Below are positions 14,844 to 38,660 of a stretch of 47,098 bases of DNA, piece after piece. Every line of letters begins with the position of its first letter. Positions within the stretch are counted from its first letter, which is position 1. The DNA comes from Gammaproteobacteria bacterium (GTDB taxonomy: Bacteria; Pseudomonadota; Gammaproteobacteria; HyVt-429). The position numbers and the translations under genes were made by a program. The notes under the pieces were generated by a model. The model saw only the letters and a list, made by a program, of their open reading frames with translations, did no database searches and was not told where the DNA came from. The stretch spans positions 1 through 47,098 of the forward strand of contig JAJDOE010000078.1 of NCBI GenBank assembly GCA_022340345.1. Direction: 5' to 3'.

Positions 14844-16688
14844 TCAGTTGCTGAGGTTCCGAATTTCGCGGTTGACATGCCCCAGGCGCGACAGGCTCAG
14901 CTCCGCCAGGTTCCGGAACAGCTTCAGGGCCACCCGCATGGCGTTGGGGTCATCGAGCTTCCGCAGCCGGGCCGGGTCGAGTCGGTGGACGAGCACCGGC
15001 GTATCGGCATGGATATCGGCGCTTCGCTTTGCGCCGGCGAATAGGGCGGATTCCCCGAAGGTCCATCCGGCGGCAAAGGCACTCAGGCGGCGGCGGCGAT
15101 TGTGATCCAGGCGGACGGACGCGCTGACGCGGCCAGAGGCGAGAAAATACAGTTCATCTGCCGGAGTTCCCTCTTCACAGATCATCTCCCCGGCATCGTA
15201 ACGGGCCTCCTCAAGCAGGCCGGCCAGTAGCGCCAGCTCCTGCGTATCGAAATTGCGGCACAAAAGATGCTCCTGTAACGACAGCGTAGCCCCGTTCTGA
15301 TTATCCGCCCGCGCGGTTCCCAGCAGGCGGTCTTCGGCGTATTCCAGGGCACGATCCACGTCCGCGAAGGCAAGATTCGGTGGGTTTTCGTGGTTGTGAA
15401 AACGGTGTTTCATCCGTCGACGGAAGGTGTAGTGGTTCTCGGTGCCGGTCAGAAGGATCAGCTTTTTCTCCGCGGCCAGGGTCGCAACCAGTTCGGTCAG
15501 TAGCGCCAGCGCCGATTGGTCTATGGACGTCACCCTTTCCATGTCGAGAATCAGGTAGTCGCACCCCTGCATTCGTTCTACCACCGTCGCGGTAACAATC
15601 TCCGCCGATACAAAACGCAGTTCCCCCGTCAGTTCGATTACCTGTACCTGGTGTCCCGCTTCGTCCAGCAGTTCGTTGCTAGTCTCGTCGCGATTGATCT
15701 TGGAGCGCACCGTGGCACCGGTATAGCTGGCACGAACCACGCTTGCGGTGGTTACGCGAGTCACGCGCAACATGTGCAGGCCGAATTCCGAAGACAGCGC
15801 CTCGCAGGTGGCGATTCCGCGCACGCTGTTACCTTTGGCATCCAGCCGCGGTGAGAAGACCGCAACCGCGAGTTGCCCCGGCAGAACCGCCAGCAATCCG
15901 CCACCGACACCACTTTTGGCGGGCATGCCTACCCGGTGGATCCAGTTGCCGGAGTAGTCATACATGCCGCAAGTGGCCATTACCGAGAGCACGCTGGAAA
16001 CCCTCTTTGCCTCCAGGGCGCGTACGCCGGTAATCGGGTTGACGCCGTCGTTGGCCAGGGTGGCGCCCATGACCGCCAGGTCGCGGGTGGTGACGAGAAT
16101 CGAACACTGGCGAAAATAGGCGTCCAGCACCGGTTCCGGGTCATCCTCCAGAATGTCGTAGGTGCGCAGCAGGTGGGCGATCGCCCGATTGCGGTGACCC
16201 GTGGTCCGTTCCGATTCGTAGATGTCCTGGTGTACTTCCAGCGGGCGACCAGCGAACAAGGCGAACTTTTCGAGAATTCGCTGCAATTTGGCGTCCCCGT
16301 TCTCACCATCCACCAGGCTGGTGGCAACGATGGCGCCGGAATTGATCATGGGGTTCAGCGGGCGCCCGGTCTCCGGCTCCAGGCTGATGGAGTTGAACGC
16401 CTCCCCGGAGGGTTCCACGTTGATTCGGCGGGCAACTTCTTCATGGCCCTTGTCTTCCAGGGCGATGCCGTAGGTGAATGCCTTGGAGATTGACTGGATG
16501 CTGAACGGCAGGCGTGCATCGCCGGATTGGTAGACGTGACCGTCGACGGTGACCACCGCGATGCCAAACCGGTCGGGGTCGGCCTTGGCCAGTTCCGGTA
16601 TGTAATCCGCCACCTGGCCGGTATCCAGGGGGGCAATGGATTTCCGAAGTTGCTCCAGGTAGTCGTGCAGGGATGTGTAGGTCTTCAT
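14844..16688 (-). CDS. glsA: glutaminase A fused to STAS and cyclic-nucleotide-binding domains
   Basis: A 614-residue three-domain protein. The ATG at 16688 follows GGAG. Residues 1-310 are a serine-dependent glutaminase of the beta-lactamase-like fold: the SxxK pair is Ser66/Lys69 in PFSIQSISKAF, with NPMINSGAI, the YFRQCSI stretch and KSGVGGG further on. It converts glutamine to glutamate and ammonia. About 345-455 is a STAS domain (VIELTGELRF ... LILDMERVTSIDQSAL). About 480-605 is a cNMP-binding beta roll with GEMICEEGTPADELYFLASGR and the phosphate-cassette-like FGESALFAGAKRSADI. The domains suggest allosteric or membrane-associated control of glutaminase activity. The short E. coli enzymes have about 310 residues and lack both extra domains. 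Confidence 0.93.
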   Translation of the reverse strand: MKTYTSLHDYLEQLRKSIAPLDTGQVADYIPELAKADPDRFGIAVVTVDGHVYQSGDARLPFSIQSISKAFTYGIALEDKGHEEVARRINVEPSGEAFNSISLEPETGRPLNPMINSGAIVATSLVDGENGDAKLQRILEKFALFAGRPLEVHQDIYESERTTGHRNRAIAHLLRTYDILEDDPEPVLDAYFRQCSILVTTRDLAVMGATLANDGVNPITGVRALEAKRVSSVLSVMATCGMYDYSGNWIHRVGMPAKSGVGGGLLAVLPGQLAVAVFSPRLDAKGNSVRGIATCEALSSEFGLHMLRVTRVTTASVVRASYTGATVRSKINRDETSNELLDEAGHQVQVIELTGELRFVSAEIVTATVVERMQGCDYLILDMERVTSIDQSALALLTELVATLAAEKKLILLTGTENHYTFRRRMKHRFHNHENPPNLAFADVDRALEYAEDRLLGTARADNQNGATLSLQEHLLCRNFDTQELALLAGLLEEARYDAGEMICEEGTPADELYFLASGRVSASVRLDHNRRRRLSAFAAGWTFGESALFAGAKRSADIHADTPVLVHRLDPARLRKLDDPNAMRVALKLFRNLAELSLSRLGHVNREIRNLSN

Positions 16689-16783
16689 GCCAATCTCCGG
16701 ATGCGCATCCGGAAACAAGAGCAAGTAGCGTGCCAGCGGGGTCGATGCGGCCTTGGTGCGAAAACAGGAGGCCACCGTCAGGG

Positions 16784-16804
16784 CTTGCCTCACAAGGAGG
16801 CAAG
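16784..16804. terminator. perfect 8-bp inverted repeat upstream of glsA
   Basis: CTTGCCTC (16784-16791) and GAGGCAAG (16797-16804) form an 8-bp stem with a five-base loop. It lies 37 bp after the APH-AAA gene stop and about 96 bp before glsA, both on the minus strand. It may end the upstream operon, but on the minus strand no U-run follows directly (TTTT appears about 20 nt later). A protein-binding dyad for glsA control is an alternative. Confidence 0.4.
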
Positions 16805-18694: not shown

Positions 18695-20440
18695 TCAGCG
18701 CGCCTTGACCTGGATCAGTTCCTCGCCGTCCGGGTCGGTAACATGCACCGCGCAGGCGATGCATGGATCGAAACTGTGAATGGTGCGCAGCACTTCGATG
18801 GGCTGCTTGGGGTCGTGCAGCTTGTGACCCTTCAGCGCTGCCTCGTAGGGGCCGGGGACGCCGGCCGGGTCCCGCGGACCCGCGTTCCACGTGCTCGGCA
18901 CCACCGCCTGGTAGTTGTCGATGCGCTCGTTTTTGATGACGATCCAGTGGGCCAGCCCACCGCGGGGCGCCTCCATGAAACCCGCGCCGCGCGCTTCGGC
19001 GGGCCAGGTTGCCGGATCCCACTGGGTCTCGTTGAAGGTGCGCACATCGCCAGCCTTGATGTTGGCCACCAGCTGGTCGTACCAGCCCTGCATCGTGTCG
19101 GCAATTACCTTGGTCTCCAGGGTGCGGGCCGCGGTACGCCCGAGAGTGGAAAACAGGGCGGTGATCGGAACGTCCAGCGTCTTCAGGGTGAAATCCACCA
19201 GCGACTTCGCCTGTTCGTGACCGGTGCCATACAGCATCAGCATCCGAGCCAGCGGCCCGACTTCCATGGCCTTGCCCTTCCATCGCGGTGATTTCAGCCA
19301 CGAGTAGGATTGGTCCACGTCCAGGTGTTTGTAGGGTGGCTTGGGACCGGTGTAGTTGAGGTTGGTCTCACCATCGTAGGGGTGTAATCCCTGCTCCTTG
19401 CCGCCGCTGTAGTCGTACCAGGAGTGTGACACGAACTCCTGAATCTGGCTGGGGTCGTCCAGGTCCACCTCGTGAATGCGACTGATATCACGGTCCAGGA
19501 TCACGCCGCGTGGGAGCAGCAGCTTGTCCGGGTCCCCGCTGGTATCGGTGGGGAAATCGCCGTAGCACAGGAAATTGCCGGTACCTTCGCCCTGGGCGGC
19601 CCAGTCCTTGTAGAAGCCTGCAATGGCAAGCGTATCCGGGATGTAGACCTGCTCCACGAAGGTATTCATGGAATCGATCACGTTCTTGATTTGTCCCAGG
19701 CCGACCTGGTTAAGAGAGGTCGCGCCGGCGCCCGTCGCGGAGGTGCTTCCCCCCGCGCTGATCGCCGTGGGCACGCCGCCGACGACAAAATTCGGGTGTG
19801 GATTCTTGCCGCCGAGAATCGCATGCAGCGTTGCGACCTCGCGTTGCCATTCCAGCGCCTCCAGGTAATGGGCCACCGCCATGAGATTGGCCTCTGGCGG
19901 CAGCTTGTAGGCCGGATGGCCCCAGTAGCCATTGGCAAAGATCCCCAGTTGCCCCTGTTCCACGAAGGTCTTCAGCTTCTTACGGGTATCGGCGAAATAT
20001 CCCGGTGACGATTTGGGATAGCTGCTGATGGACTGGGCCAGTTCCGAGGTTGCCTTGGGGTCGGCGCTCAGCGCGGACACCACGTCCACCCAGTCCAGGG
20101 CATGCAGGTGGTAGAAGTGCATGACGTGGTCATGCACGTACTGGGCGCCAATCATGAGATTGCGGATCAACTGCGCGTTGGGCGGAATCTCGTACTTGAG
20201 GGCATCTTCCACCGCGCGTACCGAGGCGATGCCATGCACCAGGGTGCAAACACCACAGATGCGCTGGGCGAATGCCCAAGCGTCGCGGGGGTCGCGTCCT
20301 CGCAGGATGATCTCGATACCGCGCACCATGGTGCCGGAGGAATAGGCGTCCGTGATTACGCCCGCGGAGTCCGTCTGCGCCTCGATGCGCAGGTGGCCCT
20401 CGATACGGGTGATCGGGTCAACTACAACGCGTTCGTTCAT
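18695..20440 (-). CDS. hynL: [NiFe] hydrogenase large subunit, Isp-type group 1
   Basis: A 581-residue catalytic subunit carrying the NiFe(CN)2CO centre. The N-terminal metal motif is RICGVCTLVH with Cys62 and Cys65; the C-terminal one is DPCIACAVH with Cys560 and Cys563. His566 is followed by 15 residues (VTDPDGEELIQVKAR), the extension that a maturation protease removes after nickel insertion. PITRIEGH near the start is typical of group 1 enzymes. The gene lies last in the order hynS-isp1-isp2-hynL, the split arrangement known from Thiocapsa and Allochromatium, where the large subunit is separated from the small one by the electron-transfer genes. Periplasmic location is expected through cotransport with the Tat-exported small subunit. 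Confidence 0.97.
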   Translation of the reverse strand: MNERVVVDPITRIEGHLRIEAQTDSAGVITDAYSSGTMVRGIEIILRGRDPRDAWAFAQRICGVCTLVHGIASVRAVEDALKYEIPPNAQLIRNLMIGAQYVHDHVMHFYHLHALDWVDVVSALSADPKATSELAQSISSYPKSSPGYFADTRKKLKTFVEQGQLGIFANGYWGHPAYKLPPEANLMAVAHYLEALEWQREVATLHAILGGKNPHPNFVVGGVPTAISAGGSTSATGAGATSLNQVGLGQIKNVIDSMNTFVEQVYIPDTLAIAGFYKDWAAQGEGTGNFLCYGDFPTDTSGDPDKLLLPRGVILDRDISRIHEVDLDDPSQIQEFVSHSWYDYSGGKEQGLHPYDGETNLNYTGPKPPYKHLDVDQSYSWLKSPRWKGKAMEVGPLARMLMLYGTGHEQAKSLVDFTLKTLDVPITALFSTLGRTAARTLETKVIADTMQGWYDQLVANIKAGDVRTFNETQWDPATWPAEARGAGFMEAPRGGLAHWIVIKNERIDNYQAVVPSTWNAGPRDPAGVPGPYEAALKGHKLHDPKQPIEVLRTIHSFDPCIACAVHVTDPDGEELIQVKAR

Positions 20441-20463: not shown

Positions 20464-21720
20464 TCAGTCCGCCAGATGTGCGGCGATCAGTTCGCTCAGG
20501 CCCACGACTTCCATCTCCATATGGTTGTGTTCGAGTCCTTCCTCGAGCATGTTGCGGCAGTTGGCGCAGGCCGTAACCAGCTTGCTAACGCCGAGCGCAT
20601 CAAGTTGCTTTTTCTTGCGTGAAAAAACCTTCAGCCGCAGGGGCTCGGCGCGTTCGTTTGAGCTCACGCCACCGCCACCGCCGCAACACCATCCCCATTT
20701 GCCGTGGTCGGTCATCTCCTGGAAGTTGGGTGCGACCATGTTGAGTAGCCGCCTTGGCTGTTCGATGACGCCGCCACGACGCACGATCTGGCAGGGGTCG
20801 TGAAAGGTGAGGGGCGTTTCATCGACGCCTTCGGTCTTCAGGCGCCCATCCGCCCGCAACTCGTCCAGCAACTCGAGCAGGTGGATGACCTGGAAGGGGT
20901 AGGCGCGTCCGATCAGGTTGGGTCCCTCCCAGCGCAACGCCGTGTATGCGTGGCCGCATTCCGGGCTGATCACATACTTGACGCCCAGTTTCTCGGCGGC
21001 GTCCACGATGCGCTGGACCAGGATGCCTGCCAGGTCCGAGGAGCCAATCTGAATCCCCGCATTGGTTGCCTCGAAGCAATCCGTCGACAGGGTCCAGCTG
21101 ACGTTCGCCTTGTGAAAAATCTTGCCGACCGCACCGATGATTTCGCTGAACTGCACCAGTTCCATGGACGACAGCAGCATCATGTAATCCGCGCCCTGCA
21201 CATCTACCGGAATCTTGAGGCCGGTTTCCGCCTCCGTAGCCTTGACCTTGGCAGCGAACGCGGCGGTCAGGTCGCCCATCGGGCTGCCTTTCTCCACCGC
21301 CCGCTCGGTCGCGCCCTTGAGGCCTTCAGGAGCTCGTCCGGCGGCCACGAAGCCCTCGCGCTGCTTGCGAATCATGTAGGTGATGTCGTTACCCATCGGG
21401 CAGATCATCGAACAGCGCCCGCACAGGGTGCAGCTGTCGTATACCAGCGTCTCCCATTCCTCGAGCTCTGCGTTGGTCAGCGGTTTGCTCATGCCCAGCA
21501 GGCTTGCGATCCGGCCCCAGAAGGTAAATTTCTGCTTCCAAAGGCGACGCAGAGGCTCCACCTTGTGGATGGGCGTGTATTTCGGATCGCCGGTTTCGGT
21601 GTAGAACAGGCAGGCATCCGCGCACAGTCCGCAGTGCACGCAGCTGTTGAAGAACGACGCGATGGGGGCATCAATGACCGCCGTCAGCGCATTGGTGGCT
21701 TTTTCGATGGAATTGCTCAT
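20464..21720 (-). CDS. isp2: Isp2: HdrB/HdrD-like iron-sulfur electron-transfer protein of the hydrogenase
   Basis: A 418-residue cytoplasmic protein resembling heterodisulfide reductase HdrD/GlpC. Two [4Fe-4S] ferredoxin motifs are seen: CVHCGLCADAC (Cys27, 30, 33, 37) and CTLCGRCSMICP (about 96-107). The C-terminal half carries two cysteine-rich CCG-type domains, with ECGHAY, the DPCQIVRRGG stretch, WCCGGGGG and TACANCRNML. The ATG at 21720 overlaps the isp1 stop (ATGA), so translation is coupled. In the Thiocapsa-type enzyme, Isp1 and Isp2 pass electrons between HynSL and the membrane quinone pool or cytoplasmic partners. The frame stays open upstream into isp1, but that part is antisense-like filler. 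Confidence 0.93.
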   Translation of the reverse strand: MSNSIEKATNALTAVIDAPIASFFNSCVHCGLCADACLFYTETGDPKYTPIHKVEPLRRLWKQKFTFWGRIASLLGMSKPLTNAELEEWETLVYDSCTLCGRCSMICPMGNDITYMIRKQREGFVAAGRAPEGLKGATERAVEKGSPMGDLTAAFAAKVKATEAETGLKIPVDVQGADYMMLLSSMELVQFSEIIGAVGKIFHKANVSWTLSTDCFEATNAGIQIGSSDLAGILVQRIVDAAEKLGVKYVISPECGHAYTALRWEGPNLIGRAYPFQVIHLLELLDELRADGRLKTEGVDETPLTFHDPCQIVRRGGVIEQPRRLLNMVAPNFQEMTDHGKWGWCCGGGGGVSSNERAEPLRLKVFSRKKKQLDALGVSKLVTACANCRNMLEEGLEHNHMEMEVVGLSELIAAHLAD

Positions 21721-22379
21721 GCCTGCACTCCTTTGTGCCCTGCGATGGCCCCGTTGTAGCCCCGCGAGACCAGGAAAGTCACAGCGTGGATCAGCTTGGT
21801 AAATGGCAGCAGTATCAGCAACAGCTCGACGCTGAGGATGTGCAGCATCAACATGTCGTTGTACGGCAGGAACAGTCGTTTGACGGCGAGGAAACCGGTG
21901 GCCAGCGGCAAGAAAGTTGCCGTCCAGGCCACGTAGTCGTTGAGGCCGCCGAGCATGCGCCGCACCGGGTCGGTGAAGCGGTTGATGAGTAACGCGACCA
22001 GAGCGACGATGGCGGCGATCGCCAGGATATCGATGATGCCATTGGGTAACGCCGGCCAGCTCAGGCCCAGCAGGTCCTCGAAGAGCACGATGTGCGGCCC
22101 GTAGAAGAACAGGGTCAGCAGAAAACCGAGGTGAAAGGTCCAGCCCGCGACGTGTACGAAGGCCTCGCGCCGACTCATTTCCCCAGGTGGCAACAGGCTG
22201 CGCGAGTAGATGGTGCGCAAGGCGCCACGAAACGCGCTGCCACGCGCCGGAGACAGGTCGGTCTTGCGCCCGAGCAGGAACATTTCCAGAAAGCGCACCA
22301 CCAGCCCGAACACGAACAGGAAAAACGCAATTTGCAGGCCGGGGCCGCGCACCCAGTTCAGGAGTTCGACGGATGTCAT
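21717..22379 (-). CDS. isp1: Isp1: cytochrome b-type membrane subunit (NarI/DsrM-like)
   Basis: A 220-residue integral membrane protein with about five helices. It resembles the gamma subunit of respiratory nitrate reductase and DsrM. Candidate b-heme ligands are His residues in the membrane segments: FVHVAGWTFHLGF near 75-87 and, in the last helices, MLHILSVELLL and KLIHAVTFLVSRG. It starts 2 bp after the end of hynS and overlaps isp2 by 4 bp. It should anchor the hydrogenase to the membrane and relay electrons from the periplasmic small subunit to Isp2 and/or quinone. Confidence 0.93.
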   Translation of the reverse strand: MTSVELLNWVRGPGLQIAFFLFVFGLVVRFLEMFLLGRKTDLSPARGSAFRGALRTIYSRSLLPPGEMSRREAFVHVAGWTFHLGFLLTLFFYGPHIVLFEDLLGLSWPALPNGIIDILAIAAIVALVALLINRFTDPVRRMLGGLNDYVAWTATFLPLATGFLAVKRLFLPYNDMLMLHILSVELLLILLPFTKLIHAVTFLVSRGYNGAIAGHKGVQA

Positions 22380-22381
22380 GT

Positions 22382-23476
22382 TCAGACCTCCTCTTTAAGA
22401 TCGTCAACCGTTACGGGTTCGCGCCGGGTGCGGGCACGATTGCGCGTGGCCCGTGCGCTCAGGCCGGCGGCCGCACCGGCGACTGCGCCGGCGGCCAGAC
22501 CCAGGGTGGCCCAGTCGCCCACCGGTTTGCGTGGCGTGGAAAGCGCCTTGTAGAAGTCGCCCGCATCCCAGAAGTCCGGTTCGGAGCAGCCAAGGCAGCC
22601 GTGACCGGACTGGATCGGGAAGCTGATTCCGCCATTCCACTTCACGGTGGCGCAGGCGTTGTAGGTAGTGGGCCCCTTGCAGCCGAGCTTGTACAGGCAC
22701 CAACCCTCGCGGGCCCCCTCGTCATCGAAGGTCTCGGCGAATTTTCCCTGGTCATAGAATGGCCGGCGATAGCAACGGTCATGAATGGAGTCGCCGTAGA
22801 ACATGCGCGGCCGGTTGTAGGCATCCAGTTCCGGAAGCTTTCCGAAAGTCAGGAAATGGGCCAGTACCCCGGTAATAACGGTCGGAATCGGGGGGCAGCC
22901 GGAAACGTTGATCACGGGCTTGTCGGTGACGATATCGGTGACCGGCACCGCCCCGGTGGGGTTCGGATTTGCTTTGGGTATGCCACCGAAGGCGGCGCAA
23001 CTTCCTACCGCGACTACCGCGGCGGCATTGCGCGCGGTCTCCACCAGCATGTCGTAATTGGACACGCCGGCAATGGTCGAATACACACCACCGTCTTTCA
23101 TTGGGATGGCGCCGTCCACCACCAGCAGGTACTTGCCTGCGTTTTCCTTCATCGCCGTTTCGCGGGCGTGTTCGGCGGCTTCACCGGCGGCGGCTTGCAG
23201 CGTGTGGTGGTAGTCGAGGGAAATGGCGTTGAAAATCAGGCCCTCCACCGTCGGATTGTGGGAGCGGGTAAGTGACTCGGTGCAACCCGTGCATTCCTGG
23301 AAGGAAAGCCAGATCACTGACGGGCGTCTCGCCGCTTCCAGGGCCCGCGCCACCATGGGGATCATGGCCGGAGGCAGCGCCATGAGGGAGGCGGTTGCGG
23401 TACAGAATTTCAGGAATCCGCGGCGGCTGACTCCCTGTTGGGCGAGGTGTTCACCGAGAGTGGATGGCTTGGCCAT
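22382..23476 (-). CDS. hynS: [NiFe] hydrogenase small subunit, Tat-exported
   Basis: A 364-residue iron-sulfur subunit. The start ATG at 23476 has GGGAGA upstream. The Tat signal is VSRRGFLKF (16-24) followed by a hydrophobic stretch to about residue 45. The proximal cluster motif reads QECTGCTES (Cys62, Cys65), with Gly where oxygen-tolerant membrane hydrogenases have an extra Cys; GSCAAFGG likewise lacks the second extra Cys. Medial and distal cluster ligands are seen in DRCYRRPFYDQG, WCLYKLGCKGP, YNACATVKWN and GHGCLGCSEPDFWD. A hydrophobic, Ala-rich segment near the C-terminus (about 320-340), followed by basic residues, probably anchors the protein in the membrane. The enzyme should be a standard, oxygen-sensitive group 1 form. 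Confidence 0.97.
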   Translation of the reverse strand: MAKPSTLGEHLAQQGVSRRGFLKFCTATASLMALPPAMIPMVARALEAARRPSVIWLSFQECTGCTESLTRSHNPTVEGLIFNAISLDYHHTLQAAAGEAAEHARETAMKENAGKYLLVVDGAIPMKDGGVYSTIAGVSNYDMLVETARNAAAVVAVGSCAAFGGIPKANPNPTGAVPVTDIVTDKPVINVSGCPPIPTVITGVLAHFLTFGKLPELDAYNRPRMFYGDSIHDRCYRRPFYDQGKFAETFDDEGAREGWCLYKLGCKGPTTYNACATVKWNGGISFPIQSGHGCLGCSEPDFWDAGDFYKALSTPRKPVGDWATLGLAAGAVAGAAAGLSARATRNRARTRREPVTVDDLKEEV

Positions 23477-23939
23477 GAGAGTCTCCCTGAATTGTTGATG
23501 TCGCAGGTTGGGTTTTCGCCGGGTCGGTCGAACGGGCCAGGTCATCGAGCTGGCGCGCCAGGCGGGCGGCAGATTCTTCCAGCGCCCGTGGGTCGGCGCG
23601 CAGAATCTCCGGCACCGGCGTGACTTCGATGTGTCGTGCGATAGTCTGCTGGCCGGCATTGAAATGCTCGACCCACCAGACGCCCGGGTAGGCGGTTTCG
23701 CGAACCAGGCTTGGCCCCAGCGCGTCCAGGCGCGCCTCCACCTCACCGCTGCCCAATGCACTGGCCAGATCGGAGAGGTCGTTGCCGGTCATCGGTACCG
23801 ACAACAGGTCGATGACGGTGCCCTCGCCGGTTTTGGTCAGGCGTTCGAGGGCGTGGCGAATCTCGGCGAGCAGCGGGACGGCATTGGCGTGGGTGACGCA
23901 GCGTTCGGGCTGGTCAACAGGCTCGGCAGGTGTGGTCAT
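23451..23939 (-). CDS. hydrogenase expression/formation protein, HupH/HyaF C-terminal type
   Basis: A 162-residue protein whose central part matches the HupH_C pattern: LLAEIRHALERL, then TGEGTVIDLLSVPMTGNDL, LGSGEVEARLDALG, and ETAYPGVWWVEH with HIEV. Proteins of this family act in maturation of the hydrogenase small subunit, apparently in iron-sulfur cluster insertion or protection. The gene overlaps the start of hynS by 26 bp and is the first gene behind the FNR-type promoter at 23975-24016. It is shorter than full HupH (about 280 residues), consisting of little more than the one domain. Confidence 0.8.
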   Translation of the reverse strand: MTTPAEPVDQPERCVTHANAVPLLAEIRHALERLTKTGEGTVIDLLSVPMTGNDLSDLASALGSGEVEARLDALGPSLVRETAYPGVWWVEHFNAGQQTIARHIEVTPVPEILRADPRALEESAARLARQLDDLARSTDPAKTQPATSTIQGDSHGQAIHSR

Positions 23940-23974
23940 CGGCGAAATTCCGCAGGGCTCAGGTAGTTGCCGCC

Positions 23975-24016
23975 ACGGTAGGCCGGAGATTCCGATCCGG
24001 CTTTGATCCGGATCAA
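23975..24016 (-). promoter_or_regulatory. FNR/ANR-type box and -10 of the hydrogenase structural operon
   Basis: TTGATCCGGATCAA (24003-24016) is a perfect FNR consensus (TTGAT-N4-ATCAA). Reading the minus strand, 22 nt later comes TACCGT (23980-23975), a TAnnnT -10 at the class II spacing, with the box centred near -41.5. The HupH-like gene begins 36 bp further on at 23939. The site lies between the hynD stop (24038) and that gene, so hynD itself is outside this transcript. The same arrangement recurs before hypC. The fit to FNR rests on established consensus; binding is inferred. Confidence 0.7.
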
Positions 24017-24037
24017 ATCCGCCCGGGGTAGAGGTCT

Positions 24038-24505
24038 TTAGGCTGTACCCCAGCTATGCAAGACCTCAAGCACTCGTGCGGCGGCGGCGGGGATGGCGGC
24101 GGCTACCCTCGGGGAGGGCTTGTCCCCCCAGCCCATCTCCGCCGGCTGGATTCCCACCAGTGCCCGCCGCTCCGGCAGGTGCCCGGTCAGGCGGGCGATA
24201 TCCATAAGGTCCACCAACCCGACTTCGTGCACGGAACGTTTGGTAGTGCCGAGAAAATGATCCATTTCGGTGCCAACAAAGTGGCGAATGGCGCCCGGGT
24301 CCGCCTGCAGTTGCGCGGCATCAATCACGATCCACGCGTCGGCGTCTTCGATGGGTCCAGCCAGGGTAAAGCTGAGGGTGCCGCCATCCAGGTATTCCAC
24401 GTCCGGAAGGTCGGGATGATGCTCCCGCAGGTACTCAAGCACATGCACTCCTGCGCCCTCGTCGGTGAGCAGCGTGTTGCCGATTCCCATGACCAGTACC
24501 CGCAT
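24038..24505 (-). CDS. hynD: hydrogenase maturation endopeptidase (HyaD/HynD type)
   Basis: A 155-residue nickel-dependent protease of the HyaD/HybD family. The ATG at 24505 gives the conserved start MRVLVMGIGNTLLTDEGAGV. The nickel-sensing residues are expected at Glu17 (TDEGAG), the Asp of YLDGGTLSF (about 60-68) and His93 in KRSVHEVGL. VIDAAQLQ matches the conserved strand. It trims the C-terminal 15 residues of HynL after nickel insertion. It is transcribed toward the hydrogenase operon from the 59-bp gap it shares with the V-type ATPase genes. Confidence 0.92.
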   Translation of the reverse strand: MRVLVMGIGNTLLTDEGAGVHVLEYLREHHPDLPDVEYLDGGTLSFTLAGPIEDADAWIVIDAAQLQADPGAIRHFVGTEMDHFLGTTKRSVHEVGLVDLMDIARLTGHLPERRALVGIQPAEMGWGDKPSPRVAAAIPAAAARVLEVLHSWGTA

Positions 24506-24564
24506 GCGCGAGACTCTAGGCGAAGCAACCAGCGCATGCAAAAAGGGCGCGAGGCAAGACGCCG
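24506..24564. promoter_or_regulatory. short divergent control region between hydrogenase and V-type ATPase genes
   Basis: The starts of hynD (minus, 24505) and the V-ATPase C-like subunit (plus, GTG 24565) are only 59 bp apart, so the two transcription units must have overlapping promoters here or within each other's coding regions. GAGG at 24551-24554 is the probable ribosome binding site for the plus-strand gene. I see no perfect FNR box and no convincing -35/-10 pair. Confidence 0.5.
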
Positions 24565-25257
24565 GTGATTGGCGCGGTACTGGCCTACGCGGCGGCCCAG
24601 GCCCGGGTGCGGGCACGACTCGGACGCATGCCGGGACACGCCCAGTGGTTGCATTTTCTGGAGGCGGACGATCTGGCCCACCTGCTGGAGCGCATGCGAC
24701 TGAGCGGCCTGGATTTCTGGCTCGACGGGCTGGGAAGTGCGCCAGCGGTGGAACAAATCCAGCCACACCTGGTCACCCGCGGTCGCCATTTTGTTCGTTG
24801 GCTGGGCGGCCTGTTGCCGCCCCCCTGGCGGGAAGTGACACGCTGGCTGCAGCGACTGCCGGTCATCGATTCTGCGCCAGCAGGCACCGTGGATGGAACG
24901 ATAGAAATTCAATGGTGGCGCGGATTGCTGCGGCGACTGCCTGCAACGGCGGGCCAGGAACAGGAAATGCTTCGGCGATTGCGGCGGGATATCACGGACC
25001 ACTTGCGAGCCGTTGCGCGGGCGGGTGAACAACAACATGCGCGACACCCGGACCAGGGACGCTGGATGCAATGGCAGTTGCGCACGCAACTGGAGCACCG
25101 CCTGCGCGGGCTTCTGTTGTTCGGGCACCCGTTCCATGCCGCCTTTGTGCTGGCCTATGGTTTGTTGGAAGCAATACAACTGGAGCGCATGCGTGCGCTG
25201 GTGTTGGCGCGCCAGGCTGGCTGGCCGCTGGACGCACGACTGCTCGGGACCGAATGA
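24565..25257 (+). CDS. V/A-type ATPase subunit C-like protein (AC39-type, short)
   Basis: A 230-residue protein from a GTG at 24565. The beginning, AYAAAQARVRARLGRM, matches the family pattern (Y-x-x-A-x-x-R-V-R-A), and FLEADDLAHLLERM the following LLEA-x-x-L-x-x-L-L segment. The C-terminal ALERLRAI-like helix (LEAIQLERMRALVLARQAG) resembles the NLR helix of the C/d subunit that contacts the c ring. At 230 residues it is shorter than the usual 330-390, so part of the three-lobed funnel may be lost. It is the first gene of the ATPase operon, 1 bp from subunit I. As subunit C/d it would join the central shaft to the membrane ring. Assignment is from pattern and position. Confidence 0.65.
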   Translation: MIGAVLAYAAAQARVRARLGRMPGHAQWLHFLEADDLAHLLERMRLSGLDFWLDGLGSAPAVEQIQPHLVTRGRHFVRWLGGLLPPPWREVTRWLQRLPVIDSAPAGTVDGTIEIQWWRGLLRRLPATAGQEQEMLRRLRRDITDHLRAVARAGEQQHARHPDQGRWMQWQLRTQLEHRLRGLLLFGHPFHAAFVLAYGLLEAIQLERMRALVLARQAGWPLDARLLGTE

Positions 25258-25258
25258 G

Positions 25259-27533
<2,275 letters not shown>

Positions 27534-27539
27534 GCCGTC

Positions 27540-27857
27540 ATGCGTATCGGGTTCATTGGAGATGCGGGCATCGCTGCGGCCCTCGGCGTGGTTGGTGTAC
27601 AGAAATTTGACACGGCAGGCGGCATGGACAGCGCCTTTTTCCGGGCGCGCAGCGCCAGTGACCTGGTGGTGCTGGATGCTGTGGTTGCGCGGCAACTCGG
27701 TTCGCTGGTGCAGCAAAGCCTGAGCGAGGCGCCGCTGCCACCAGTGATCGTGATTCCCGTTTTGACAGGCGAACTGTCACGCAGCGATCCCGTGGTTCGT
27801 CGCGCCCGTCGCCTACTCGGCCTGGCGGCCGCACAGGAGAACAAGGGTGATGAATGA
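27540..27857 (+). CDS. V/A-type ATPase subunit F
   Basis: A 105-residue protein in the F position between K and E. It starts MRIGFIGDAGIAAALGVVGV, matching the family pattern (x-I-G-D-x-x-x-x-x-G-F-x-L-x-G), and the middle reads VVLDAVVARQLGSLV, with PVIVIPVLTGEL in the second half, as expected for this small alpha/beta subunit of the central rotor. Its stop overlaps the start of subunit E by 8 bp. Confidence 0.8.
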   Translation: MRIGFIGDAGIAAALGVVGVQKFDTAGGMDSAFFRARSASDLVVLDAVVARQLGSLVQQSLSEAPLPPVIVIPVLTGELSRSDPVVRRARRLLGLAAAQENKGDE

Positions 27858-28458
27858 AAACGGCAACGAGCAGGCCCGTACCTTCCTGGACCAGATCGAT
27901 CTGGATCGCGATGCCGAGCTGGCGGAGGTGGCCGCGCAACTTGCGTTACAAAGCCGCGAAGTCCGTCTGGCCGCATACAGCCGTTCCACCTCCGCGCATC
28001 GGGAACAGGCGGAGCACGCACGAGCGCGCCTGCTCCATCGGCATGATCGAAAGGTGTCCCGCGCCCGTGCGGTGGCGCGCCGACGGTCCTGGCAACTGGT
28101 GGGAGCAAAAAGTGACGTGGCGGTGCAGCGGTTGATGGAACGGGCGCGCGCCGCCTGGGCCGACCCGGATAGCCAGTGGAGCTGGTGTCGGTATTGGGTA
28201 GAACGTGCCCGGGAACTTGCTGCTGGCGAGGAATTGAGCATTCGCATCGGGCAAGGCGGCTTGCCTGGGACCCTCGCGCGCCTGAAACAGGAGTTTCCGG
28301 AAATGCCGCAGTTTCGGATGGACACGGATCTTTCCGCCGGGTTGGTGGCTCGCTTCGGCGAGTGGATTCTGGATGCCCGTCTCGCGGCGCACTGCCCGCT
28401 CAGCGAGCAACGAATCGCCGGGGTACTGGATGGCTGGATGGAGGGTGCGGATGGCTGA
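27850..28458 (+). CDS. V/A-type ATPase subunit E (peripheral stalk)
   Basis: A protein of about 202 residues. I use the ATG at 27850; a GTG at 27847 is directly upstream in frame. The N-terminal 110 residues are a long, charged helix without Gly or Pro breaks, and the C-terminal part is a small alpha/beta domain (about 130-200), with LSIRIGQGGLPGTL and the SAGLVARFGEWILDARL pattern of family members. Subunit E normally pairs with G or H to form a peripheral stalk; no such gene is in this operon. It overlaps subunits F and A by 8 bp on either side. Confidence 0.75.
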   Translation: MNENGNEQARTFLDQIDLDRDAELAEVAAQLALQSREVRLAAYSRSTSAHREQAEHARARLLHRHDRKVSRARAVARRRSWQLVGAKSDVAVQRLMERARAAWADPDSQWSWCRYWVERARELAAGEELSIRIGQGGLPGTLARLKQEFPEMPQFRMDTDLSAGLVARFGEWILDARLAAHCPLSEQRIAGVLDGWMEGADG

Positions 28459-30226
28459 GGCGACGGTAACCTGGATCAACGGTCCGGTGTTGCGCGCCCG
28501 GCGGCAGGGATCGTTTCACATCAAGGAGGCGGTGCACGTAGGGGCAGCGCGCCTGGTCGGCGAGGTCATCGCGCTTCGGGACGACAGCGTTACGGTGCAG
28601 GTTTTTGAAGACACCACCGGCCTTCGGCCCGGCGACCTGGTTCAAGGTCTCGGTACCGGCCTGGTGGTGGAATTGGGCCCCGGATTGCTCGGCCAGTTGT
28701 TCGATGGCATCCAGCGCCCACTGCGGGCGCTGGGCGAGTTGTATGGCGACCTGGTGCCGGTAGGGCTTTCGGTGCCACCGCTGGACCGGGAACGGGCCTG
28801 GGCGTTTCGCCCGGTGCTGGAAGCGGGACTAGCCGTGCCGGTGGGAGCCGTTATCGGCGAAGTGCAGGAGACGGTGGGGATCGTGAACCGGGTTCTGGTG
28901 CCAGCCGCCGCCGCGGGTACCCTGGAGTGGATTGCGGAGGAGGGCGAATACCGGATCGAGGAACCGGTAGCGCGTACCCGTAGCCCGGATGGGATCGTCC
29001 AGGAAATCGCGCTGCTTCGGCGTGCCCCCATCCGTGCACCGGCGCCGGTAGGCGAACGCTTCGCACCGGCCATACCCCTGGTTACCGGGCAACGGATACT
29101 GGATACGCTGTTTCCGGTGGGCAAGGGTGGTGCGGCGACTTTGCCGGGAGGCTTTGGCACCGGAAAAACGATCCTGCAGCAGACCCTGGCCAAATGGTGC
29201 GATGCGGACATTATTCTTTACATCGGTTGCGGCGAGCGCGGCAATGAGATGGCCAGCATCCTGACGGAATTTCCCGGGTTGACGGACCCGCGAAATGGTC
29301 GCCCGCTGATGGAGCGAACCGTAGTGATCGCCAATACATCAAACATGCCGGTTGCCGCTCGCGAGGCATCCATCTACACCGGCATCAGCATTGCCGAGTA
29401 CTTCCGCGACCAGGGCTACCACGTAGCGGTGCTGGCAGATTCCATTTCGCGCTGGGCCGAGGCGTTGCGGGAAATCTCCGGCCGCCTGGAAGAATTGCCG
29501 GCGGAGGAGGGGTATCCGGCCTATCTGCCCAGTCGCCTGGCGGAGTTTTTTGAGCGAGCCGGCAGGGTGACGACGCTGGCGGGTGCCGAGGCGTCGGTGA
29601 CCGTGGTTGGCGCCGTCTCGCCGCCAGGCGGTGATTTCTCCGAGCCGGTGTCCGCCCACGCACGCCGCTTCGCGCGCTGTTTCTGGGCGTTGGATCGGGA
29701 GCGTGCCCAGGCACGTTTCTACCCGGCGGTACATCCACTGCAAAGCTATTCCGGCTATGTGGACCAGCTGGAACGCTGGTGGCAGGACCGTGATGATCTG
29801 CATTGGAGGGAGCGGCGGGATCGCTTGCTTCGCCTTCTGGAAAAACAGGCGAAACTGGAACGCATGGCCAAGATTGTCGGCCGCGATGCGCTCCCGGCGG
29901 AACAGCGCCTGGTGCTGGCCTGTGCCGAGATCGGCACGGAGGCCATTCTCCGGCAGAACGCCTACTCGGAGCAGGATGCGTTTTGCGCGCCGCGCAAGCA
30001 GGTCGCTATGTTGCGGGTCCTGTGTCACTTTTTTGACCAGGCGGAAGCCGCGGTGGCACGGGGAATCGATCCCGATGCGCTGCTCACTCTGCCAGTGGTT
30101 CGCAAGCTGCAGCGGATGGGCGAGGACATCGCCGGCGACGATCCGGAGTCTTTTCGTGCGTTGCAGGCAGAGATCGACATCGCGATCGCCGGGTTGGAGT
30201 TACCGGCGGAGGTGGAAAGTGCCTGA
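28451..30226 (+). CDS. V/A-type ATPase catalytic subunit A
   Basis: A 591-residue catalytic subunit from the ATG at 28451, which overlaps the end of subunit E. It begins MAEATVTWINGPVLRARRQG (beta barrel). The typical non-homologous insert of A subunits occupies about 110-200. The P-loop is GGFGTGKT (about 233-240), with the catalytic Glu in YIGCGERGNEMASIL. SISRWAEALREISGRLEELPAEEGYPAYL is the classic A-subunit stretch, split here as SISRWAEALREISGRLEELP then AEEGYPAYL. It hydrolyses or makes ATP at three sites in the A3B3 head. Confidence 0.96.
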   Translation: MAEATVTWINGPVLRARRQGSFHIKEAVHVGAARLVGEVIALRDDSVTVQVFEDTTGLRPGDLVQGLGTGLVVELGPGLLGQLFDGIQRPLRALGELYGDLVPVGLSVPPLDRERAWAFRPVLEAGLAVPVGAVIGEVQETVGIVNRVLVPAAAAGTLEWIAEEGEYRIEEPVARTRSPDGIVQEIALLRRAPIRAPAPVGERFAPAIPLVTGQRILDTLFPVGKGGAATLPGGFGTGKTILQQTLAKWCDADIILYIGCGERGNEMASILTEFPGLTDPRNGRPLMERTVVIANTSNMPVAAREASIYTGISIAEYFRDQGYHVAVLADSISRWAEALREISGRLEELPAEEGYPAYLPSRLAEFFERAGRVTTLAGAEASVTVVGAVSPPGGDFSEPVSAHARRFARCFWALDRERAQARFYPAVHPLQSYSGYVDQLERWWQDRDDLHWRERRDRLLRLLEKQAKLERMAKIVGRDALPAEQRLVLACAEIGTEAILRQNAYSEQDAFCAPRKQVAMLRVLCHFFDQAEAAVARGIDPDALLTLPVVRKLQRMGEDIAGDDPESFRALQAEIDIAIAGLELPAEVESA

Positions 30227-31631
30227 ACCCCGGTTACAGGACCGCTTGCTGCATACCGGAATCGAGGCCATGCGCGGACCGCTTCTGTTTGCGCGCAACA
30301 CCCGGGGCGTGGGGTTGTACGAAAGTGTCGAGGTGCTTGATGTCAACGATCAGGCGCGACTGGGTCGGGTGGTTGCCATCGATGCGGACAACGCCGTGAT
30401 TGAGGTGTTCCAGGGGCTCGACGGATTGTCGCTGGATGAAACCCGCATACGCTTCCTGGGTGAGCCGGTGGAGATGGATGTGGGCCCTCGCATGCTGGGC
30501 CGGGTCTTTGGCGGGTCCGGCCAGCCGATCGATGGCGGGCCGCGCATTGTCGCGCGGGATCGGCAACGCATCGACGGGCTGGCGATCAACCCGGCGCGGC
30601 GCGAGGTGCCCAGCGAGTTTATCGAGACCGGGATCTCCGCCATCGATGTCATGAATTCCCTGGTGCGAGGCCAGAAGCTTCCGATCTTTTCCGGCAGCGG
30701 GCTCGCCCATGATCGCCTGGCATCCACCATCGCTCGCTTTGTTCGTCTTCGTGGCGACCAGAATGAACAGTTCGCGGTCGTGTTCGCCGCGATTGGCGTT
30801 ACCTTTGATACCGCGGAGCGATTTCGCCGAGAAATGGACGACTACGGCGCACTGGAACACATTGCACTGTTTCTCAACCTGGCCAGCGATCCCGGCACGG
30901 AACGACTGCTTACGCCGCGGGTTGCGCTGACCTGCGCCGAGTACCTCGCCTATTCCGAGGATCGCCACGTATTGGTGATCCTTACCGATATGACGAACTA
31001 CTGCGAGGCACTCCGCGAGGTGTCTACCAGCCACGAAGAGATTCCGTCCCGCAAGGGGTATCCCGGATACATGTACTCGGACCTGGCTGCAATCTACGAA
31101 CGTGCCGGGCGGATTCGCGGGCGCGCGGGGTCGGTAACGCAATTGCCAATCCTGACGATGCCCGGTGATGACATTACCCATCCGATCCCGGACCTGTCCG
31201 GCTACATCACCGAAGGACAGATTGTTCTCGGGCGGGACCTGGATCGGCGCGGCGTTTTCCCGGCCATCGACCTGCTGCCCTGCCTGTCCCGCCTGATGCC
31301 GGAAGGAATCGGAAACGGGCGCACCCATGCCGACCATCCGGCGCTGGCCCGGCAGCTATACACGGTTTACGCCCAGGCGCAGCGGTTGCGCCTGCTTTCG
31401 TCGGTAGTAGGGGAAGAGGGCCTTTCACCCAGTGATCGCATCGTGCTGGGTTTCGGGACGCGCATGGAGGAGCGATTTTTGCACCAGGGTAGCGAGCGCC
31501 GAAGCCTGGAACACAGTATGGATATCGCGTGGCAACTGCTCGCGGCGCTGCCGGAGGAAGTTTTGCTCCGGCTGAGTGACGAGCAGATCGAACGACAGAT
31601 CCGGAGTCGGCGTGCCAACCGAACTGAGTAA
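30219..31631 (+). CDS. V/A-type ATPase subunit B
   Basis: A 470-residue regulatory nucleotide-binding subunit. The GTG at 30219 follows GGAGG at six nucleotides and overlaps the end of subunit A by 8 bp. Family motifs include LGRVFGGSGQPIDGGP, EFIETGISAIDVMNSLVRGQ and PIFSGSGLAHDRLA in place of a true P-loop, as expected for non-catalytic B, then LTDMTNYCEALREVSTSHEE split as LTDMTNYCEALREVS and TSHEEIPSRKGYPGYMYSDL. The arginine finger lies in the same region. It overlaps subunit D by 20 bp. Confidence 0.96.
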   Translation: MPEPRLQDRLLHTGIEAMRGPLLFARNTRGVGLYESVEVLDVNDQARLGRVVAIDADNAVIEVFQGLDGLSLDETRIRFLGEPVEMDVGPRMLGRVFGGSGQPIDGGPRIVARDRQRIDGLAINPARREVPSEFIETGISAIDVMNSLVRGQKLPIFSGSGLAHDRLASTIARFVRLRGDQNEQFAVVFAAIGVTFDTAERFRREMDDYGALEHIALFLNLASDPGTERLLTPRVALTCAEYLAYSEDRHVLVILTDMTNYCEALREVSTSHEEIPSRKGYPGYMYSDLAAIYERAGRIRGRAGSVTQLPILTMPGDDITHPIPDLSGYITEGQIVLGRDLDRRGVFPAIDLLPCLSRLMPEGIGNGRTHADHPALARQLYTVYAQAQRLRLLSSVVGEEGLSPSDRIVLGFGTRMEERFLHQGSERRSLEHSMDIAWQLLAALPEEVLLRLSDEQIERQIRSRRANRTE

Positions 31632-32223
31632 GGCGGCGCTGCTGGAACGGCGCGAGGAACGCGTCCTGGTAACTCAGGCGCGCCAGATTCTCGAGGAACA
31701 ACGGGACCTTCTGGCGCACCACATGATGGATCTGATCCGTGATTGCGAACGGGAGTGGCAGGAATTGCGGCCGGACTGGAAGGGCTGCGCGGAGGCCATG
31801 CGGCTTGCGTTGTTGCGGCATGGCCAGCAGGGCCTTGCGGCGCGGAGCGACACTCGCCCGGCCACTCCCCGGGGCGCCTGGCAGGAGACCCGGGTTTTCG
31901 GCGCCCGCCAGGTTGAAGGCCGACCGCAGGCCGGCACGCCGCCGGTGGCGGAGGAAGCGGTATGGGGCCGGTCGGTGGAAATGGAGGTTTTGGTGGAAGC
32001 CTTGCGCGGGTTTTTAGCGCGGCTCGCTGCCAGTGCCGCGCGCAGAAACAACCTGGAACGACTGGCGGACGCATTCGCGCGCACCAATCGGCGAGTGAAC
32101 GCGTTGGAATACGTACTGCTGCCGGAACTGCGTCAGAGCATCAAGTCGCTGGAGTCCCAGCTGGATGAAGCCGAGCGGGAACACCTGGCGCGGGTGCATT
32201 TCGCCAAGCGGCGACGCGCTTAA
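31612..32223 (+). CDS. V/A-type ATPase subunit D (central rotor shaft)
   Basis: A 203-residue helical protein from the GTG at 31612, preceded by GGAG. The two long antiparallel helices at the N- and C-termini form the rotor shaft; the C-terminal helix contains RRVNALEYVLLPELRQSI, the family signature (R-R-V-N-A-L-E). The middle part (about 75-130) is Pro/Gly/Arg rich and poorly conserved. It is the last gene of the ATPase operon; the convergent mepK stop lies 52 bp on. Confidence 0.93.
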   Translation: MPTELSKAALLERREERVLVTQARQILEEQRDLLAHHMMDLIRDCEREWQELRPDWKGCAEAMRLALLRHGQQGLAARSDTRPATPRGAWQETRVFGARQVEGRPQAGTPPVAEEAVWGRSVEMEVLVEALRGFLARLAASAARRNNLERLADAFARTNRRVNALEYVLLPELRQSIKSLESQLDEAEREHLARVHFAKRRRA

Positions 32224-37939: not shown

Positions 37940-38384
37940 CTCCAACCTCCGGTTTTGGTGTCCGTGCGAACCGGGAAGTGTAACCCCATGGAGACACTCG
38001 CGTGCTACGGGTTGAAGGCTGCCGTGACGGTGGCAGCGCAGGCCCAGAGTCCGGCACAACGCGCGGCGGTAACGCGGACAAATCACAGGCCAGATAACAC
38101 CCCGCCCACCGGCCCCTGCAGGGATGGAACCGGGTGCGGCGAGGCCGGATCCGGCTCGTGAAAAATTCGAATTAATAGATCTAACTATCGGTTTTAAAAC
38201 ATAAAAAAGCTTCATCCGGGCTGCCAGCGGTGTAATGACCCGGAACGTGGGGGCACACCGGAGGAGCCGCGGGTACCGGCATCGGAATGTCTTGATTTGA
38301 ATCAAAGTTGCCGCGCTCGTTATTCCTTAGCGTGGGCCACACCGAAACTGCGCGGCGGATGCCGCCGAAAACGGAGAAAGCCAT
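37940..38384. other. 445-bp intergenic region with an AT-rich island and the hyp promoter
   Basis: There is no gene here. Positions 38158-38215 are strikingly AT-rich for this genome (about two-thirds A/T, with TTTTAAAACATAAAAAAG at 38193-38210), then GC-rich sequence resumes. The right part holds the FNR-type box and -10 of the hyp operon. The AT-rich stretch could serve as an upstream activating or silencer-binding segment for either flanking gene. Confidence 0.5.
38292..38333 (+). promoter_or_regulatory. FNR/ANR-type box and -10 of the hyp operon
   Basis: TTGATTTGAATCAA (38292-38305) is a perfect TTGAT-N4-ATCAA consensus. After exactly 22 nt comes TAGCGT (38328-38333), a TAnnnT -10, giving the class II FNR layout. 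hypC starts 51 bp further on. The geometry is identical to that of the hydrogenase structural promoter at 23975-24016. Confidence 0.75.
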
Positions 38385-38660
38385 ATGTGCCTGGGAATCC
38401 CCATGCAGGTCAGATCGGTGGAGGGCTTTCGCGCCCGCTGCGAGGCGCGCGGTATCGAGCGTGACGTAAGCCTGTTTATGCTGCCGGAGGGTTCGGTGGC
38501 CATCGGCGACTTCGTTGTGGTGCACGTGGGCTACGCCATCCAGACCATCAGCGAGCAGGAGTCCCGCAGTGCCTGGGAGATCTACGACGCGATGCTCGCG
38601 GCGGAGGACGCCCTGGAGGCACCTCCGGCGGTAACGGCGGTCGGTGTCGGGGAGAGCTGA
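38385..38660 (+). CDS. hypC: hydrogenase maturation chaperone HypC
   Basis: A 91-residue chaperone. MCLGIPMQV, with the essential Cys2, is the family signature; the ATG at 38385 has GGAG upstream. FVVVHVGYAIQTISEQES is the conserved middle strand and helix. HypC works with HypD to build and deliver the Fe(CN)2CO unit to the large subunit HynL. It is the first gene of the hyp operon and ends 3 bp before hypA. Confidence 0.96.
   Translation: MCLGIPMQVRSVEGFRARCEARGIERDVSLFMLPEGSVAIGDFVVVHVGYAIQTISEQESRSAWEIYDAMLAAEDALEAPPAVTAVGVGES

Follow-up and report, generated by a model that had tools for sequence, protein, structure and literature searches.

A predicted class II FNR-activated promoter within an Isp-type [NiFe]-hydrogenase cluster of an uncultured gammaproteobacterium

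Results

The hydrogenase cluster and the FNR box upstream of hupH

The window analysed here (the whole stretch of DNA, 47,098 nt) carries on its minus strand the gene cluster hynD-hupH-hynS-isp1-isp2-hynL (Table 1). Gene order and domains identify it as an Isp-type (group 1e) [NiFe]-hydrogenase operon, as isp1 and isp2 sit between hynS and hynL, the layout that defines group 1e hydrogenases (PMC7735108; for the Isp layout also PMC10892978). The cluster adjoins a divergent V/A-type ATPase operon (I, c, A, B and D subunits; 24565-32220, plus strand), and a gene for a glutaminase fused to STAS and cyclic-nucleotide-binding domains is located at 14844-16793 on the minus strand.

The 98-nt gap between hynD (stop at 24038) and hupH (ATG at 23939) contains the perfect palindromic FNR box TTGATCCGGATCAA, which on the minus strand matches the pattern TTGAT-N4-ATCAA at 10 of 10 specified bases, as well as a -10 hexamer of the form TAnnnT, TACCGT, that follows exactly 22 nt past the box (spacer 24002-23981) and agrees with the -10 consensus at just 3 of 6 positions. 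The preliminary description of this DNA had claimed an exact pattern match between hynD and the HupH-like gene with a minus-strand TAnnnT hexamer after 22 nt, and all of this is borne out by the letters. In E. coli, FNR-activated promoters mostly have their site at -41.5 (PMC3688515), and the hupH site has this class II spacing, i.e. 22 nt between box and -10, so that a box centre at 24009.5 puts the predicted start site near 23968, 29 nt ahead of the hupH ATG.

Table 1. Features of the hydrogenase and hyp regions with their positions in the window
Feature	Position	Strand	Basis or remark
hynL, hydrogenase large subunit	18695..20440	-	Pfam PF00374, 6.5e-238
isp2, CCG/4Fe-4S heterodisulfide reductase-like subunit	20464..21720	-	Pfam PF02754, PF13183
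isp1, membrane cytochrome b-like subunit	21717..22379	-	Sub-threshold NCBIfam TmcC/HmcE-like match; lies between hynS and isp2 in relatives too
hynS, [NiFe]-hydrogenase small subunit	22382..23476	-	TIGR00391, 438 bits
hupH-like gene (HupH_C domain), first gene 3' of the box	23451..23939	-	Pfam PF04809, 1.6e-31
Predicted transcription start	23968..23968	-	Inferred from class II geometry, box centre at -41.5 (PMC3688515)
-10 hexamer TACCGT	23975..23980	-	22 nt past the box; aligns with TACCTT in L016
FNR box TTGATCCGGATCAA	24003..24016	-	Pattern match; 12 of 14 bases kept at the same place in the closest relative, L016/G001
hynD, hydrogenase maturation protease, upstream of the box	24038..24505	-	TIGR00072, 133 bits; Pfam PF01750
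-10-like hexamer TAGGCT, antisense to hynD	24039..24044	+	Putative; 22 nt from the box in the opposite direction; overlaps hynD stop codon
Second perfect FNR box, TTGATTTGAATCAA	38292..38305	+	Pattern match; 79 nt upstream of hypC
-10 hexamer TAGCGT of the predicted hypC promoter	38328..38333	+	Offset 22
hypC, first gene of the hyp maturation cluster	38385..38660	+	TIGR00074, 81 bits

Dinucleotide shuffles of the window yield 0.02 perfect FNR boxes, compared to two in the actual sequence. The other box, which lies outside the finding of the preliminary description, precedes hypC, itself followed by hypB (TIGR00073); together with its TAGCGT hexamer at offset 22, it suggests shared control of the maturation and structural genes.

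A genome-wide set of boxes with class II geometry and a cognate FNR

The whole-genome FNR motif scan that the preliminary description had proposed revealed ten perfect boxes in the 2.79-Mb assembly, mostly by respiratory genes, and none for a reversed control pattern. Besides hypC and hupH, they adjoin nuoA, hemN with a Usp gene, an alpha/beta hydrolase gene, cytochrome genes (b561, NapC/NirT and cbb3-type c) and a Yip1-COX1 (cbb3-type oxidase) cluster from which a cation-ATPase gene diverges; one further place is less clear. Judged by its genes, this set has the composition of an FNR regulon. The first codon at which nuoA could start comes 98 nt downstream of the nearby box (L002:1501-1514), which lies near the end of a tRNA-like gene.

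We also determined the spacing between boxes and TAnnnT hexamers, which occupy approximately 0.26% of the plus-strand positions of the window. A set of 58 other perfect boxes, drawn from this genome and from three members of its family and counted in both directions (116 orientations), has 14 TAnnnT hexamers at offset 22, compared to a mean of 1.3 at other offsets (binomial p about 8e-11). This genome alone has five at offset 22 (including both directions of the hyn box itself), one at offset 21 and none at the remaining offsets from 15 to 29. Because TAnnnT peaks at offset 22 across boxes, class II geometry characterises the predicted regulon as a whole, and the spacing at hupH is an exact fit.

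The assembly encodes a single FNR (C165:14323-15018), with cysteines that align with all four cluster cysteines of E. coli FNR (C20, C23, C29 and C122) and a recognition helix, ETVSR, that retains E-x-x-S-R, the combination taken here to define a cognate FNR; at 218 bits the protein scores under the curated Fnr subfamily cut-off of 228. Four further Crp/Fnr-family proteins were found in the 94% complete assembly, and none of them has an E-x-x-S-R helix (two have a CRP-like R-E-x-V-x-R, one R-Q-x-V-T-T and one a divergent helix) or the N-terminal cysteine motif.

Conservation of the hyn promoter in relatives

Only one family relative, L016 (G001), carries the operon, with a HynS that is 73% identical, and its hynD-hupH gap contains TTGATCTGGACCAA followed by TACCTT at offset 22. 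Relative to this genome, L016 keeps 12 of 14 bases of the box and 5 of 6 of the -10, compared to 3 of 22 in the spacer and 2 of 20 in the following 20 nt. Moreover, a perfect FNR box precedes its hypC by 464 nt. The ATPase-side neighbourhood is also represented there by its first genes.

The order hynD-hupH-hynS-isp1-isp2-hynL is widespread in gamma- and betaproteobacteria, with hupH missing at that place in many. Near the start of the hyn cluster of 80 relatives we counted 15 boxes with at most one mismatch, versus 1.3 on average (maximum 6) for 19 permuted palindromes, these counts including related sequences that are not independent events. Of 14 such boxes inspected, seven have a -10-like hexamer (TAnnnT or a match of at least 4 of 6) at offset 21-22 towards hyn. 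Placement varies among lineages: some have the box before hynD, others before hupH or hynS. Since just 13 of the 80 relatives have a box with at most one mismatch, universal conservation is ruled out and the control would not be ancestral to the cluster; FNR control of the hyn cluster, as predicted from these boxes, is recurrent yet not universal. Matches of the form TTGATCGGYATCCA in several relatives were set aside, as their position is within hynD and they may represent a coding motif, L-I-G-I-Q.

Transcription of hynD

The preliminary description had also assigned transcription of hynD to the divergent gap. Sigma-70-like promoters with -35 and -10 elements were found neither there nor anywhere in a scan of 23300-25100 around hynD, and the assignment is an unproven guess from layout. 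No terminator-like site was found between hynD and hupH, so read-through from hynD is possible and the FNR promoter may supplement it. A terminator-like stem with CTTTTT does occur just upstream of hynD, on the hynD strand (24563-24546, minus strand), and it may be due to chance, as three terminator-like sites were found in the region and 1.3 were expected.

Discussion

We conclude that the hynD-hupH gap probably contains a class II FNR-activated promoter, located inside the hynD-hupH-hynS-isp1-isp2-hynL cluster and co-regulated with the hyp maturation genes (probability roughly 0.87). Four independent computations support the class II FNR reading: the coherent set of boxes, the canonical FNR, the offset-22 peak and the conservation of box and -10 in L016. 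The preliminary description is thus upheld where it proposed an FNR box with class II spacing before the structural genes, but not where it had hynD transcribed from the divergent gap. When oxygen is lacking, FNR with its [4Fe-4S] cluster would dimerise and bind TTGATCCGGATCAA centred near -41.5, where it would substitute for the missing -35 element and bring sigma-70 RNA polymerase to TACCGT, the weak -10, giving a transcript from about 23968 through hupH-hynS-isp1-isp2-hynL. The matching promoter before hypC would be worked by the same FNR, and the enzyme and its maturation factors would therefore rise together as oxygen falls.

Could the box be a chance palindrome without function? Most relatives do lack a box at this place, but the 0.02 boxes expected per window, the exact spacing to the -10, the box/-10 footprint kept in L016 and the functionally coherent set formed by the other boxes of the genome leave this idea with hardly any credence. 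It is very unlikely, too, that a genuine class II promoter is worked by another Crp/Fnr protein, for example an NO sensor of the DNR/NNR type, in which case the operon would respond to nitrogen oxides and not to oxygen. DNR and FNR boxes are nearly identical, the genome has the four further family members and one box precedes the NapC/NirT-type cytochrome gene; against this, none of the four has the N-terminal cysteine motif, and FNR is the only family member found with the E-x-x-S-R helix, so that no DNR-type regulator that could recognise the box was detected among them. As the assembly is 94% complete, a DNR-type gene may be missing from it.

Another explanation has FNR repressing or fine-tuning from the box, with the operon expressed mainly from a promoter upstream of hynD. 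The lack of a terminator-like site from hynD to hupH would permit this, and the distance of some 50-100 nt between hynD and the next gene in many relatives fits a single transcript. We nonetheless consider it highly improbable, as a box at -41.5 and a -10 kept at the exact spacing form the layout of activation, both lie inside the hynD-hupH gap and a consensus promoter upstream of hynD was not found. A rather unlikely extension of the class II reading is that the palindromic box serves as a two-way promoter from which FNR also drives plus-strand transcription, antisense through hynD and on towards the V/A-type ATPase operon. The hyn box is the only 1 of 59 boxes with an offset-22 TAnnnT on both sides, and L016 has TATGTT at the place equivalent to TAGGCT; these two hexamers are not independent, because their TA comes from the reverse-complemented hynD stop codon, whose distance from the box is identical in the two genomes. 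If true, a two-way promoter might link silencing of hynD to oxygen or supply the ATPase anaerobically.

Hydrogenase genes under FNR-type control are already known, and the predicted hupH promoter adds a new example. The hyn hydrogenase of Thiocapsa roseopersicina reportedly has an anaerobic promoter dependent on FNR (FnrT). That system shares with ours the hynS-isp1-isp2-hynL enzyme type, a gammaproteobacterial host and FNR-type activation of the structural genes, which is predicted here, whereas our locus has hynD-hupH directly upstream and the promoter between these two genes, inside the cluster. In Rhizobium leguminosarum, hypBFCDEX has an FnrN-dependent promoter (PMC3534401), an FNR-type promoter for hydrogenase maturation genes at low oxygen such as we propose for hypC; the structural hupSL genes of that organism are under NifA, while here FNR boxes are found at both structural and hyp genes. 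The E. coli class II FNR promoters narG, dmsA and nirB (PMC3688515) have in common with our prediction a single FNR site centred at -41.5 and a sigma-70 -10, but differ in their target genes, and our locus combines a weak -10 with G+C-rich host DNA. Taken together, the sequence makes a convincing case for the hupH site as an ordinary anaerobic switch of a known kind.

The promoter of this hydrogenase operon is hereby predicted to the base, and a simple reporter could test it. The distribution of boxes suggests several gains or losses of FNR control of the hyn cluster among lineages, and the box before nuoA suggests that complex I may be controlled by FNR as well. For the uncultured gammaproteobacterium itself, our findings place an Isp-type hydrogenase together with its maturation genes in the predicted FNR regulon.
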